Shown: piece after piece, positions 17,773-22,622 of the stretch
Layout of the letters: each line of letters opens with the position of its first letter
Position numbering within the stretch: the stretch's first letter is position 1
Source of the DNA: Acidobacteriaceae bacterium
GTDB lineage: Bacteria > Acidobacteriota > Terriglobia > Terriglobales > Acidobacteriaceae
Reading direction: 5' to 3'
DNA length: 64,000 nt
Assembly (NCBI GenBank): GCA_030041045.1
Contig: JASHOQ010000018.1
Coordinates: forward strand, 1-64,000
Program-made: the position numbers and the translations under genes
The notes under the pieces: model-generated
What the model saw: only the letters and a program-made list of their open reading frames with translations
Database searches by the model: none
Told to the model about the DNA's origin: nothing

Positions 17773-18291
17773 TTACATCGCCGCCACAAAACTCGGTACC
17801 ATCCCTGCCGCGTGATCCTGCATCAGCTGCGTCATGCGCGCGGCCATTCCGGTATACATGCTTGCCGCACGGAACGCGTTGATGCGAACACCTTCGCTCG
17901 CCTGCGTGAAGCCGTACTGGCACAGAGCCGTCAGCACGCATACGCGAATCTGCATGGCGTCACTGTGCAGCGTCTCGATCAGCAGTCGATCAACACCCTC
18001 ACAGTGCTTGGCTGCGTAATCAGCCATCTGCAGCAGAACGCGCGCGTTCTGGTACATCACCCACAGGCCTTTCGGGCCCTCCATGCGCTTCCAAGCGTCC
18101 TCAGGGGTGGCGCTGAGGCCCTCTTTCCAAAGGAAGTGATCGCTGAGCTCACGCGCGCTCCAATCGGGACGCAAGCGAGACAGCAACGATTCCCAGGTTT
18201 CAGCATTGCGGCGGCGCATGTTCATCCGCCAGCGACCAAGGATAAGCGCAGTTGCTACGATTGCTGCAATTTGAATCAACGGCAGAATCAT
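17773..18291 (-). CDS. Membrane-anchored protein of unknown function
   Basis: This is a 172-residue protein. One N-terminal membrane segment (residues 1-20) is followed by basic residues, which places the rest in the cytoplasm. The soluble part is helical, with the blocks WSARELSDHFLWKEGLSATPEDAWKRM and YGFTQASEGVRINAFRAASMY. I recognise no family. A strong terminator closes it at 17727-17750. It may follow the leftward genes at 18504 and 19392, but a 212-bp gap separates it from them. Confidence 0.6.
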   Translation of the reverse strand: MILPLIQIAAIVATALILGRWRMNMRRRNAETWESLLSRLRPDWSARELSDHFLWKEGLSATPEDAWKRMEGPKGLWVMYQNARVLLQMADYAAKHCEGVDRLLIETLHSDAMQIRVCVLTALCQYGFTQASEGVRINAFRAASMYTGMAARMTQLMQDHAAGMVPSFVAAM

Positions 18292-18503: not shown

Positions 18504-19295
18504 TTACGGCCGTTTGTTCTTCCGCCCCGAGGTCGCCGAGTCCGTGGCTGCAATGCGCATGGAGCGCGCCGCCCCGGCCACAGCCAGCAGAACGCTTTGC
18601 ATCTGCGGGCTGAATTCGCGCCGCTCGGCTTCGTGCTGGGCGAAGCTGAAGATCCAGTAAAACAAGCTGCAGAGGTAGGTTGCCGCCACGAATTGATCGA
18701 CTAACAAGTACTGCGGCCCGGCCGTCTGGTGGGAGTGGACCATGGTCGCGGTCAGGGAAGCCAGCGAATAAAATCCGAGACCGGTGGCGATCTGCAGCTC
18801 GCGGTCCTTCCATCCAATAGAGAGAAGCTGGCTGCATCCGGCCAGCGCCAGGAAGAAGAGAACGCGCAAAATCGAGTCGGTTTGCAGCAGCCGGCCCAGC
18901 AACTGCCACTGGTGCAGGTGAGCAAGGTGCGCGAACGCCGTCGCCTCGGTAAACGGCCAGATTGCCATGCCGGCAATGGCGATCAGGATCCCGAGCACAA
19001 ACGCCGTTGCCGGGGGAAGCGTTTTGCGGTAGGGGCGGAAGATGGCCCAGGTGAGCTCAACCAGGACGCAGAACTGCAGCGCCCCGTCCAGAACGCTCTC
19101 GTAGAAATAAGTATGAAGAGCCTGGTGCGGCCAATCGCGCAGCACAAAGAAGTAGAGAACACTTCCCGCCAGGCACTCCAGGTTGTAGATGAGAAAAAAT
19201 GGAAACGACCGCCATGCATGCCGGTAAATCAGGAGGATGATGAGAACCGCAAACGCCAGATTTCCGGCGACGAAAATCGCAGTTTCCAAGCTCAC
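18504..19295 (-). CDS. Polytopic (about seven-segment) membrane protein, unknown
   Basis: This is a 263-residue protein with about seven hydrophobic segments from residue 5 to 235 and a basic cytoplasmic tail. There are short charged loops and no transporter signature. It contains scattered His (AFAHLAHLHQW, MVHSHQTAG). I do not recognise a named family; its layout resembles small acidobacterial membrane proteins of unknown role. It lies 96 bp downstream of the secreted repeat-peptide gene on the same strand, so the two may be cotranscribed and functionally linked. Confidence 0.6.
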   Translation of the reverse strand: MSLETAIFVAGNLAFAVLIILLIYRHAWRSFPFFLIYNLECLAGSVLYFFVLRDWPHQALHTYFYESVLDGALQFCVLVELTWAIFRPYRKTLPPATAFVLGILIAIAGMAIWPFTEATAFAHLAHLHQWQLLGRLLQTDSILRVLFFLALAGCSQLLSIGWKDRELQIATGLGFYSLASLTATMVHSHQTAGPQYLLVDQFVAATYLCSLFYWIFSFAQHEAERREFSPQMQSVLLAVAGAARSMRIAATDSATSGRKNKRP

Positions 19296-19391: not shown

Positions 19392-19757
19392 TTAACTTAC
19401 CAAGCCGCCATTGAACGGGGGCAGCGGATCGATCGGCGAACTCAGCGCCAGGCCCCCATTGAACGGAGGCAGCGGATCGATCGGCGAACTCAGCGCCAGA
19501 CCCCCATTGAAGGGAGGCAGCGGATCGATCGGCGAACTCAGCGCGAGACCCCCATTGAAGGGAGGCAGCGGATCGATTGGCGAAGTCAGCGCCAAACCGC
19601 CGTTGAACGGAGGCAACGGATCGATTGGCGAAGCCAGCGCCATACCACCGTTGAACGGAGGCAGCGGATCGATTGGAGATGCCTTTGCTTGTGAAAGACC
19701 CCAAATAGCCAAAGCTGAGATCAGTAAGAGGCTGCGTATTTTTGTTCTGGAATTCAT
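19392..19757 (-). CDS. Secreted peptide of six tandem 16-residue repeats
   Basis: This is a 121-residue precursor. Residues 1-26 are a textbook signal peptide ending QAKA, with a signal peptidase I site before SPIDP. Everything after it is repeats: six copies of SPIDPLPPFNGG plus a four-residue linker (MALA, LALT, LALS three times, and a shortened LVS). The mature chain has one acidic residue per repeat, no Lys, Arg or Cys, and three to four Pro per repeat. Across the 12-residue core, every codon that differs between copies differs silently, so the minus frame is under selection. GAGGGG lies before the ATG. I recognise no family; a structural cell-surface peptide or a multicopy peptide precursor are both possible. 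Confidence 0.75.
   Translation of the reverse strand: MNSRTKIRSLLLISALAIWGLSQAKASPIDPLPPFNGGMALASPIDPLPPFNGGLALTSPIDPLPPFNGGLALSSPIDPLPPFNGGLALSSPIDPLPPFNGGLALSSPIDPLPPFNGGLVS
19395..19679. repeat. 48-bp tandem repeat tract (six copies)
   Basis: The DNA of the repeat-peptide gene is a contiguous tandem array with a 48-bp period and no spacers. Copies differ mainly at third codon positions of the minus frame (for example CCA/CCG, AAC/AAT, GGT/GGC/GGG). Confidence 0.95.
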
Positions 19758-19796
19758 GGTGTCCCCTCAGGAAAAAACGTGTTGCGCAAGCCAGAC

Positions 19797-19812
19797 TACC
19801 CTAAACTGGGTA
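19797..19812. promoter_or_regulatory. Inverted repeat upstream of the repeat-peptide gene
   Basis: TACCC-TAAACT-GGGTA is a perfect 5-bp inverted repeat 40 bp before the start codon, in the 293-bp divergent gap. The gap is AT-rich for this genome (TATAGT-like sequence at about 19830) and should hold the promoters for both flanking genes. A regulator-binding role is only a guess. Confidence 0.3.
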
Positions 19813-20050
19813 TGCCTCTACCACGAAAGTACTATACATCCAAATTTTCATTTGAATAGCGCTTTTGTTGCCTCAAACGGAATTAATTTGCAGAAAAAAC
19901 GGACAGGTTCTCCATTTCTTCGCCTTTTCGGCGCCAACCTCCCGCACCAGCCGACACTTTTTCCCCTTCGGAATATCATTGGTCAACAGGTTGCAGCCGT
20001 TCCGGCGCCACTTCCCTCCATCCGGATGCCCGCTGCGGGACGGATTCTTT

Positions 20051-21322
20051 GTGATTCCTGAGCTCCGCCAATCCTTCAATTCCCGCTTCCAGCCGGCGGA
20101 CTACACCAGGCTGCTCGCGCGGCTCGAAGAGCTATGCGGCGTGAGGGTCGAGTTTCGCGTGGCCGAGACGCCCATTTTTATCCCGCAGGAGCGGCTCGAA
20201 GAGATGGCAGGCACAGGTGCCCAGCTCACCCAGTCGCTGCTTGGCGATGCCGCGTATCTGGCTGCGGCGCGCAACGCCATTCCGCCCGGATTCTGCGCCG
20301 CCCATCAGACCGCGCATCCGCATTTTCTTACCGCGGATTTTTCGCTCATTCGCAATTCCAGTGGCCAGCTCGAACCGCGTCTTGTGGAAATGCAGGCGTT
20401 TCCTTCGGTCTATGCGTACCAGGCGGTTCTATGCTCCGCCTACCGCAGCGTGTTTGCGCTCGACGGCTCGCTGCGCATCTTTCTTGCGGGATTGAGCGAA
20501 GAGGATTATTGGTCTCTTCTGAAGAAGACCATCGTGGGCAACTGCGACCCGGAAAACGTGATTCTCTCCGAGCTCGATCCACTGCATCAGAAGACACGGC
20601 CCGATTTCGAGGTCACTGCGCGGCGCCTCGGCATCGCCGTCGTCGATATCCGTTCTCTCGTAACCGAAGGCAACCGGCTGTTCTATCGCAACCTCTCCGG
20701 CCGGCTCACGCCCGTTCGCCGCATTTATAACCGCGCCATCGCCGACGAGCTGATCGCGCGCGCAGTGCGTTTGCCGTTCGACTGGACCCACCCCTGGGAA
20801 GTGGAGTGGGCCGGCCATCCCAATTGGTATTTCCTCATCAGCAAATTCTCAATTCCGTGGCTGTGCCGCGGGCCGAGCGGCTCCACGTACGTTCCCCCGG
20901 CCGTTTTCCTCGACGATTTTCTCCGCGGCCCGGGGCGCCAGGTGCTCGCGCAAGCCGGTGTCCCGCTGCCAGCCGGCCATCGTCCTGAAGCCGTGCTCGA
21001 GGGCCTCCTGCTCAAGCCGCTGTTCTCCTTTGCCGGGAAGGGAATTGTCTTCGATCCCACGCAGGCTGAGCTGGATGCCATCCCTGTGGCGCGTCGCAAA
21101 GACTTCCTGCTGCAGCAGCGGATGCACTTCGAGCCCACCATCGAGACGCCCTGCGGACCCACGCAGGCTGAGATCCGCATCCTCTATCTCTGGCCCGACG
21201 CCGGCCGTCTCACGCCGGCGCTTGCTCTGGTTCGCCTTGGCCGCGGAAAAATGATGGGCGTCGACCACAATCGTAACCAGACGTTTGTCGGCGCCTCGGC
21301 CGCGTTTTTTCCGGCCCCGTAA
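20051..21322 (+). CDS. ATP-grasp-like conserved protein
   Basis: This is a protein of about 423 residues from GTG 20051; the frame is open back to TTG 19865, but that part lacks conserved character. Segments resemble ATP-grasp enzymes: FIPQERLEEMAG near the start, IYNRAIADELIARA in the middle, and LLLKPLFSFAGKGIVFDP, whose Lys and Gly-rich loop would bind ATP, then QQRMHFEPTIETPCGPTQAEIRILYLW with the Glu and Arg pattern of the metal site. The substrate is unknown; a peptide- or amide-forming ligase is likely. It is divergent from the repeat-peptide gene, so a link is conceivable but unproven. Confidence 0.55.
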   Translation: MIPELRQSFNSRFQPADYTRLLARLEELCGVRVEFRVAETPIFIPQERLEEMAGTGAQLTQSLLGDAAYLAAARNAIPPGFCAAHQTAHPHFLTADFSLIRNSSGQLEPRLVEMQAFPSVYAYQAVLCSAYRSVFALDGSLRIFLAGLSEEDYWSLLKKTIVGNCDPENVILSELDPLHQKTRPDFEVTARRLGIAVVDIRSLVTEGNRLFYRNLSGRLTPVRRIYNRAIADELIARAVRLPFDWTHPWEVEWAGHPNWYFLISKFSIPWLCRGPSGSTYVPPAVFLDDFLRGPGRQVLAQAGVPLPAGHRPEAVLEGLLLKPLFSFAGKGIVFDPTQAELDAIPVARRKDFLLQQRMHFEPTIETPCGPTQAEIRILYLWPDAGRLTPALALVRLGRGKMMGVDHNRNQTFVGASAAFFPAP

Positions 21323-21486
21323 ACACCCGAGTGCACAATCTTAGAGAAATCCAAAAATCCATCGAAACAAAAGGGATGAACCGCCATGCATAGTTACTCA
21401 CCGGAAAACTTTGGTGCCGTTTTTCACAGAGATAAAATCCGCTAGAGTGGCGCAGATAACCGATACTGGAATTCGGGTGGGCTCCC

Positions 21487-21849
21487 ATGAAGTTTTCGAA
21501 TACCGCCTTTTCTGCTTCCGTTCAAGAGCCGGACTCTCAGACGGCGCGCCAGGAAGTTCGTTGTGCAGTGCGCTTCCCTCTTTCGCTGCCGGTGGTGGTG
21601 GAAACCCCCGGGGGCGGCGTGCCCGCGCTCACCAAGAATGTCTCTTCCAACGGCGTGCTTTTCGAGCTCGACCACGACCTATCTGTAGGCGTCGACATCC
21701 ATTTCGACCTCAGGATGCCACGTACGGTTCTTGGCACTCCCCACGATGTGCTAGTTCATTGCACCGGTCGTGTGGTACGCTGCTCGTTAAGCCAAGACCT
21801 GCATCTCGCCGCCGCCACCATCGATGAATACCAATTTGCGGAGCGGTGA
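21487..21849 (+). CDS. PilZ-domain protein (c-di-GMP receptor)
   Basis: This is a 120-residue single-domain PilZ protein. The c-di-GMP-binding motifs are visible: RxxxR as RCAVR at about residues 25-29 and the D/NxSxxG-type box as NVSSNG at about 51-56, followed by HFDLRMP and GRVVRCS. It likely changes the activity of a partner when cyclic di-GMP rises. Its stop overlaps the start of the next gene by 4 bp (GTGA), so the two are translated together. A GGGTGGG precedes the ATG. Confidence 0.85.
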   Translation: MKFSNTAFSASVQEPDSQTARQEVRCAVRFPLSLPVVVETPGGGVPALTKNVSSNGVLFELDHDLSVGVDIHFDLRMPRTVLGTPHDVLVHCTGRVVRCSLSQDLHLAAATIDEYQFAER

Positions 21850-22622
21850 GACCGGAGTTCCTTTGGCGCCAGCCAACTATGGATTTTCTGGACGAAGCTC
21901 CTGAAGGCGAAGTACTTGACACGGTAAAACCGGGGACAATCCGCATCATCCTTGCGGATTCTCAGGCCATCTACCGCGTGGGCATTCGCAAGGTTTTTGC
22001 TCTGGAAGACGATCTTCGCGTGGTGGCCCAGGCCGACTCTCTTGACAGTCTGCGCGCGGCCATCGAGCGCTACCCCACTGACGTGGTCCTCCTCGAAGGC
22101 GGGCTTCTGGCCGGCACCACCAACGTAATCCCCGAGCTTCTGCGTCTGGCGCCCGATGTCAAGCTGATCGTGCAGGCGGTCGCGGCCGACGAGAACCACA
22201 CCGTGGAACTCTACCGGCGCGGCGTGCGCGGCATCGTCAACCGGTCGATTTCTCCTGATTTGCTCGTCCGCTGCGTGCGCCGCATCGCCGCCGGCGAAAC
22301 CTGGATCGACAACCAGTCGGTCAACTGGGTCATCGAGGCCTATCGCGCCCAGGCCGCCGCGCTGGTGAGCCCGCGCAGCCAGCCGCGCCTCTCGCCCAAG
22401 GAGCTGGCCATCATCACCTGCATCACCCAGGGCAAGCGCAACAAGGAGATCGCCTTCCAGCTCGGCACCACCGAGCAGGTGATCAAGAACTACCTGCGCA
22501 AGATCTATGACAAGCTCGGCGTCAGCGACCGCCTCGAGCTGGCCCTCTACTGCCTGCACAACAAGATCATCCAGACCGACGTGGATGAGGAGATCGTGGC
22601 GCAGAAGATCGTGACCAGCTAA
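21846..22622 (+). CDS. LuxR/NarL-type regulator with degenerate receiver domain
   Basis: This is a 258-residue protein with a receiver-like domain (about 31-150) and a LuxR helix-turn-helix (about 180-245: LSPKELAIITCITQGKRNKEIA). In the receiver the phosphoacceptor Asp is replaced by Glu84 (VVLLEGG), the switch Thr/Ser by Ala (VQAVAAD), and the conserved Lys by Asn (GIVNRS). It should therefore act without phosphorylation. GTG 21846 overlaps the PilZ stop; an alternative ATG is at 21879. Pairing with PilZ suggests cyclic di-GMP-linked gene control. Confidence 0.85.
   Translation: MRPEFLWRQPTMDFLDEAPEGEVLDTVKPGTIRIILADSQAIYRVGIRKVFALEDDLRVVAQADSLDSLRAAIERYPTDVVLLEGGLLAGTTNVIPELLRLAPDVKLIVQAVAADENHTVELYRRGVRGIVNRSISPDLLVRCVRRIAAGETWIDNQSVNWVIEAYRAQAAALVSPRSQPRLSPKELAIITCITQGKRNKEIAFQLGTTEQVIKNYLRKIYDKLGVSDRLELALYCLHNKIIQTDVDEEIVAQKIVTS

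Follow-up and report, generated by a model that had tools for sequence, protein, structure and literature searches.

A tandem-copy secreted peptide and its adjacent seven-helix membrane protein as a possible signal–receptor pair in Acidobacteriaceae

The Acidobacteriaceae DNA stretch analysed here, in its full length of 64,000 nucleotides (the window), contains a gene for a secretory chain made of six tandem copies of one short proline-rich peptide, which belongs to a large uncharacterised family: the core of the peptide is constant within a given genome and is rewritten from species to species, and the copies differ at approximately 30% of silent sites. There is about an even chance that the gene is the precursor of a short secreted, lineage-specific peptide signal and that the adjacent seven-helix (7TM) membrane protein is its receptor. 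The combination of a guarded core, species-wise change, one or many copies and a co-changing membrane protein makes a private signal with its receptor the best explanation. The broader proposal, a family-wide bacterial pheromone system in which tandem-copy peptides rewritten in almost every species would be read by a co-evolving adjacent 7TM receptor, is held more tentatively, at somewhat less than even chances.

The precursor (121 aa) was recognised from the open reading frame list, the codon pattern and its homologues. Its position at 19392–19757 had been given correctly in the initial annotation, while the strand had to be corrected to minus, with the ATG at 19757 and the stop codon at 19392–19394. 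Plus-strand reading frames across the array were rejected because the silent changes fit the minus-strand frame. The 26-aa signal peptide (19680–19757, minus strand) ends in AKA, as had been proposed, with the cleavage site predicted by eye, and an N-terminus of the same type recurs in the homologues. It is followed at 19395–19679 by six units, identified with Tandem Repeats Finder and a codon print-out (19632–19679, 19584–19631, 19536–19583, 19488–19535, 19440–19487 and 19395–19439); the first five have 16 aa each and consist of SPIDPLPPFNGG plus MALA, LALT, LALS, LALS and LALS, respectively, and the sixth has 15 aa and ends with LVS. The array (19408–19673; period 48, 5.5 copies, 92% matches, score 413) was by far the top-scoring tandem repeat in the 64-kb window. 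The codon print-out reproduced the pattern that had drawn attention to the gene: eight codon positions of the 12-residue core vary among the six copies, every change is synonymous, and amino acid changes are limited to the linker. The mature chain contains Asp and is free of Lys, Arg and Cys. Besides the array itself, three matches were obtained in its own genome (5.23 Mb, 142 contigs), namely the antisense strand of the array and two sites with E values of 0.3 and 1.8. The precursor peptide had no match in Pfam, NCBIfam or PADLOC, in agreement with the earlier statement that no family with this motif was known, and the PADLOC models of anti-phage defence recognised no family among five proteins of the locus at E ≤ 0.01.

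The initial annotation recommended a motif search, which did find relatives, but SPIDPLPPFNGG itself was not conserved and nearly every species had another unit. When 199 related genomes were searched at the protein level, the matches in the same genus (g1) were signal peptides with different short units repeated in tandem behind them; a back-translated unit pattern scanned across the genome contigs found no relative because the unit is not conserved. The homologues kept both the reading frame and the signal peptide, and their copies differed mainly by silent changes; broken frames, missing signal peptides and mostly replacement changes had been named beforehand as arguments against the annotation. 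From 75 records, five were set aside (L121 as spurious, L118 as a second piece of G061, and L063, L072 and L084 for runs of N), and four of the remaining 70 had fewer than two copies, either as true single copies (G060, G011) or at contig ends (G028, G075). The 66 arrays thus left, 57 in g1 and nine in a second genus (g91), contained 65 distinct units, and in all 66 a signal-type N-terminal segment preceded the copies. The units were proline-rich and 12–24 aa long (median 17), e.g., IPMSPFPTKTAA, GPMTPAPTPPGPTFA (19 copies in a one-contig genome) and EPIWPLPPAVKTAAA. The copies numbered 2–19 per array (median 5), which are lower bounds because many contigs break inside the array. Such breaks were seen in many g1 contigs, for example L054, L058 and L076 with L208. 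Lys and Arg together numbered zero in 34 units, one in 30 and two in 2, and Cys was absent from 63 of the 66. The first unit began at most 36 residues from the start codon, i.e., near the end of the signal peptide, in 43 of the 66 arrays, the others having a spacer. The most common linker residue at positions -1 and -3 was Ala (30 and 34 of 66 genomes, respectively), and no constant protease site was seen in the linkers of these arrays. The unit of G030, a genome outside the 66, was the same as that of G020, which indicates that close relatives can have a unit in common. Finally, a single short peptide without repeats followed the signal peptide at the same place in L062, L090 and G023, and likewise in four members from genera g3 and g105; the peptides of the single-copy members had 10–19 residues, indicating that a unit can stand alone.

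The comparison of copies within 61 arrays separated core from linker sharply. With the core defined by its prolines (from X-Pro through the last Pro) and copies counted only at a match of at least 70% to the unit, pN/pS was 0.016 in the core against 0.365 in the linker at equal pS. Among 595 core codon columns, 239 had silent changes only and 11 changed the amino acid (pS 0.295, pN 0.005), and the corresponding figures for the 413 linker columns were 105 and 101 (pS 0.300, pN 0.109). A cruder count over whole units gave 345 columns with silent changes only and 100 with amino acid changes, for a pN/pS of 0.136. Copies hardly differed from each other in a few arrays (G025, G021). Judged from these codon comparisons, purifying selection maintains the core in every genome, and the copies are kept as one exact peptide.

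The promoter region of the precursor (19788–19836, minus strand), delimited by an alignment of ten loci and a model, includes a box TACTTTCGTGGTAG (19818–19831) and a dyad TACCCAGTTTAGGGTA (19797–19812) followed by TAGTCT. The ten aligned upstream regions, including its own, have in common TACTTTYGTNGTAG with few deviations and then, within approximately 16–17 nt, a dyad ending in GGKTAsTCT. We considered a resemblance of the TACTTTTGTNGTA box to what we take to be BlaI/MecI-type operators, and of the dyad to what is presumably a NarL-type 7-2-7 site. The sequence-only model R1 built from the aligned loci had a single match in its own genome at E ≤ 10. It found the promoter at E < 0.02 in 64 of the 80 same-genus genomes (65 places, G007 having two) and at E ≤ 1 in 65, as a rule with one strong locus per genome, and in most loci the expected reading frame lay downstream, some loci running into contig ends or runs of N. 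The two strong loci of the G007 bin (L063, L094) have different flanking versions, and the first hardly differs from the G037 locus, suggesting that the bin is mixed. Of the 15 genomes without a promoter match at E ≤ 1, G005, G021 and G058 had arrays nonetheless, as did G030 at a contig end. Among named records, the promoter pattern occurred in 13 contigs, all titled as Acidobacteriaceae or Acidobacteria MAGs, four of which had palsa, fen or bog as isolate names. Outside g1 the matches of the model within the family were weak; of 16 regions fetched, nine in g91 had repeat reading frames, one (G259, also g91) reached the contig end without one, and the six from other genera had none. In another genus, a weak promoter-model match was seen between an ATP-grasp-like gene and the PilZ-regulator genes, with no peptide reading frame at that place (L157 in G380).

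In g1 and g91, the two genera compared for synteny, the genes followed, wherever contigs extended far enough, in the order MarR, LuxR-type regulator, PilZ, ATP-grasp-like protein (not always present), divergent promoter, peptide, 7TM protein, a 172-aa protein, aldo/keto reductase and M29-type peptidase. The 172-aa protein (17773–18291, minus strand), encoded by the next gene downstream of the 7TM gene, has a hydrophobic helix at its N-terminus and a helical domain (model pLDDT 83.6) and is a possible partner on the basis of synteny and alignment; it had no match in Pfam or NCBIfam, nor in Foldseek at E ≤ 0.001. On the other side, the plus strand encodes a protein of 120 aa with a PilZ domain (21487–21849; Pfam PilZ E 5.6e-10, syntenic) in one unit with a LuxR-type regulator of 258 aa (21846–22622; Pfam GerE E 5.8e-13, and Response_reg E 3.9e-5, below its cut-off), in whose receiver Glu replaces the phospho-acceptor Asp in 70 of 70 orthologues. 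The upstream-region comparison placed the promoter of this PilZ-regulator unit at 21408–21448 (plus strand), with ACTTTGGTG at 21408–21416 and TAGAGT at 21443–21448: of the 56 regions upstream of PilZ, 52 contained ACTTTNGTG, compared with 14 of 1120 stretches drawn at random from these loci, and in 40 of the 56 a TAVAKT box stood behind it, mostly 35 nt on. The ACTTTNGTNGTA box of the peptide promoter resembles ACTTTNGTG, so the peptide unit and the PilZ-regulator unit are probably co-regulated. The divergent neighbour between them (19865–21322, plus strand, start codon uncertain) is weakly ATP-grasp-like (CP_ATPgrasp below cut-off, E 0.047) and had matches in 30 other genomes of the genus; this sub-threshold match in a non-constant member of the locus was the sole candidate for an enzyme modifying ribosomally made peptides (RiPPs).

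The proposed receptor (263 aa; 18504–19295, minus strand) was characterised by AlphaFold, conservation, charge bias, co-occurrence and co-variation. Its model consists of seven long helices and a C-terminal helix (pLDDT 91.3, pTM 0.84), and in 71 of 71 members Lys and Arg lie mostly on the C-terminal side of the membrane, predicting an N-out, C-in topology. Inner loop 3 is nearly invariant (entropy 0.42), and there are other invariant residues. The outer loops reach entropies of 2.3–2.75, and no other part of the chain compares with them except the very C-terminal end (2.75) and helix 2 (2.27). Foldseek gave no match at E ≤ 0.001; the best had an E value of 0.043, with TM-scores of at most 0.48 by query, and most of the matches listed were GPCR domains, with LYCHOS and one rhodopsin also present. 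VIA Z values of up to 13.1 are at a level common for helical bundles, and no sequence of the PDB was matched by the profile. As far as the models go, the likeness to GPCR-type folds is that of helical bundles, and what we claim is an arrangement, not homology. In Pfam, NCBIfam and PADLOC the protein of the window had a single, sub-threshold Pfam match (Lys_export, E 0.33), and scans of the 71 members gave scattered weak matches, each in a few members, and no recognised signalling domain. No match was found in plasmids, and phages gave one marginal match (E 0.01). In many genomes of the genus (L060, L083, L113, L057 and others), a second, more diverged 7TM copy with approximately 25–35% identity to the query stands right behind the first.

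In the genus the 7TM protein occurred along with the peptide: of 80 genomes, 63 had both, two the peptide alone, four the 7TM protein alone and 11 neither. Presence of the 7TM protein was taken at E ≤ 1e-40, with G074 and G075 added as partial genes at contig ends, and the list of peptides takes in three masked arrays. Both contigs with the peptide alone (G029, G079) end inside the array, and three of the four genomes with the 7TM protein alone (G023, G037, G048) show the start of a peptide, which leaves G012. Six of the 15 genomes without a promoter match (G004, G010, G017, G027, G036, G051) have kept the regulator and the PilZ protein and lack both the array and the 7TM orthologue; they may belong to one clade, in which case the losses may be few events.

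The two partners also varied together. Among 38 genomes, with the distances of RR, the 172-aa protein and the reductase held constant, the partial correlation between unit and 7TM distances was 0.33 (p 0.0005), and 0.31 for the unit against the outer loops of the 7TM protein. The PilZ protein, taken as a control and nearly as variable as the 7TM protein (mean p-distance 0.47 vs. 0.57), gave 0.015 (p 0.39). The 172-aa protein also co-varied with the unit (0.26, p 0.0005); the ATP-grasp gene, compared in 26 genomes, did so somewhat (0.17, p 0.026) and the reductase marginally (0.12, p 0.05), so that exchange of linked segments could explain part of the signal; the value for RR was -0.20. In 21 non-overlapping close pairs, the Spearman coefficients were 0.58 for unit and 7TM protein (p 0.006), 0.51 for unit and outer loops (p 0.017), 0.34 for unit and control (p 0.14) and 0.47 for 7TM protein and control (p 0.03). 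For this analysis the unit phase was set by hand in G336 and G013, where the automatic phase was rotated. Mantel-type tests are liberal for related sequences, and these results support, and do not prove, co-evolution of the peptide with the 7TM protein.

The 7TM profile reached well beyond these two genera, with matches in 230 of 300 family genomes at E ≤ 1e-6 and in 25 of 151 class genomes at E ≤ 1e-8, 19 of the latter from the same family; many of the matches are distant relatives. Repeat reading frames were found 5' of the 7TM gene in 15 of 20 further regions (genera g19, g113, g35, g119, g40, g117, g39 and g91), and in G228 and G117 the pair was present with no match to the other genes of the module in the fetched stretch. 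In four regions (G279, G216, G293, G268), those of the g3 and g105 members mentioned above, a single short peptide followed the signal peptide at that place, e.g., SPLQYLLDVWRLG or TEIWRWIMSL, and the fetched region of G205 had no repeat reading frame at the 7TM gene. Among 20 more distant 7TM relatives, 13 had a small signal-peptide reading frame at most 700 nt upstream, and all 13 of these contained PxP or PP, in motifs such as GGNPHP, TGTDPEP, GPGDPNPLGH and SGSDPRP. The same test applied to 85 long reading frames of the window gave seven small secreted frames and three of PxP type, and another window background gave 14 and 5 of 93. In the distant regions themselves, the background was one and zero of 10, counting complete reading frames that overlap neither the 7TM gene nor its peptide; a cruder count there (13 and 10 of 24) was too high because pieces of the 7TM gene and the peptide gene had entered it. 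In regions L244–L262, small secreted [DN]PxP proteins, some with a hydrophobic C-terminus, precede the distant 7TM relatives. By their sequences, these proteins and 7TM relatives perhaps constitute a wider peptide-7TM family.

If the peptide is a signal, the precursor would be exported via Sec and its units cut apart within the linkers, and N-terminal trimming would be halted by the X-Pro at which each unit begins; no dedicated protease for the units was identified. The released peptide would then bind the variable outer face of the 7TM protein, whose conserved inner loop and C-terminal helix would relay the signal into the cell, perhaps together with the 172-aa protein. The LuxR-type regulator, whose own promoter has the ACTTTNGTG box too, may exert control. 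Several copies per chain would raise the dose, as in fungal pheromone precursors.

Adjacency, co-occurrence and co-variation would be expected equally if the 7TM protein exported, cut or modified its own peptide and changed with it as an enzyme or transporter does with its substrate, and the nearly invariant inner loop 3 and the other invariant residues could serve catalysis. However, the peptide already has a Sec-type signal peptide, the family scans placed no protease, transporter or modification family above the cut-off, and it is the outer loops, besides the C-terminal end, that are the most variable, not an interior pocket; we consider this explanation unlikely. An adjacent, polymorphic and co-varying pair of a proline-rich secreted peptide and a membrane partner is also what a toxin with its immunity protein may look like, the peptide inhibiting related competitors and the 7TM protein protecting the producer. 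Usual antimicrobial peptides are cationic, in contrast to the units, which are mostly uncharged or have one Lys or Arg, and unlike mobile bacteriocin genes the locus has stayed in position, flanked by the same genes in two genera, with no plasmid match for the 7TM protein. Toxin-immunity by itself also leaves the promoter box in common with the PilZ-regulator unit unexplained, and seems to us about as unlikely.

Of the three roles suggested in the initial annotation, those of multicopy peptide precursor and of signal gained from the core conservation, the conserved promoter and the co-occurring, co-varying 7TM protein; the third, a surface fibre, was weakened because some members have one short peptide without repeats at the same place. 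A structural repeat protein, i.e., an extended proline-rich envelope chain with repeats free to drift from species to species, would agree with secretion, proline content and tandem repeats of up to 19 copies, but these single peptides, the near-absolute conservation of the core within arrays against the looser linker, and the 7TM partner that occurs and varies with the peptide make it improbable. The few arrays with hardly any differences between copies would fit a recently expanded repeat without selected function, a mere by-product of mutation. The contrast of silent and replacement changes contradicts it, with a pooled silent divergence of approximately 0.30 and a core pN of 0.005 suggesting that most arrays are old and selected; given also the conserved promoter and synteny, such an origin is highly improbable.

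The arrangement favoured here, a private peptide signal with a 7TM receptor, has counterparts in several known systems. In Saccharomyces cerevisiae the alpha-factor is a pheromone made from a tandem-copy precursor and its receptor Ste2 is a 7TM protein. The P-factor of Schizosaccharomyces pombe (PMC6342294) likewise comes from a secreted tandem-copy precursor with varying copy number, and both the peptide and its 7TM receptor Mam2 are diverse. The acidobacterial genes resemble these systems in the secretory signal followed by several copies of one short peptide in varying number, and in the diversity of both the peptide and the 7TM protein, the latter being a putative receptor here; they differ in being bacterial, in showing no Kex2-type sites, in the adjacency of the 7TM gene and in having no mating, and sequence homology with the fungal systems is not expected. 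Fungal KEPs, the Kex2-processed repeat proteins, consist of a signal peptide and highly repeated cores that are very diverse between species, many of them without homologues, are cut by Kex2 and are located in 22% of cases near DUF3328 genes (PMC7329392). The signal peptide and the repeated cores diverse between species are features in common, but the linkers here end in small residues and no DUF3328 Pfam match was found among the scanned neighbours. Gram-positive agr-type systems encode a polymorphic short secreted peptide beside a co-varying membrane partner, as appears to be the case here, whereas the Sec-type signal peptide, the tandem copies, the 7TM partner without a kinase domain and the acidobacterial host set the present genes apart. 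Multicore RiPP precursors also contain several core peptides, with a leader that is usually read by modifying enzymes; the present precursors instead begin with a signal peptide of the Sec type, and no modifying enzyme was recognised. In the open-licence literature without preprints, no bacterial precedent was recognisable from titles and abstract starts, and titles and abstract starts of open-licence literature likewise revealed no work on peptide signalling in Acidobacteriota.

Acidobacteriota are among the commonest bacteria in soil. If the pheromone system is real, each lineage would have a private channel, a bacterial parallel to the fungal pairing of alpha-factor or P-factor with a 7TM receptor, and PxP-peptide/7TM pairs would extend still more widely across the Acidobacteriaceae. 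Dozens of matched natural pairs would then allow direct study of peptide-receptor co-evolution, and ligands would be predicted for a set of bacterial 7TM proteins. From a hypervariable peptide and a 7TM partner that varies with it, one could read off which soil bacteria communicate with, or inhibit, which others.
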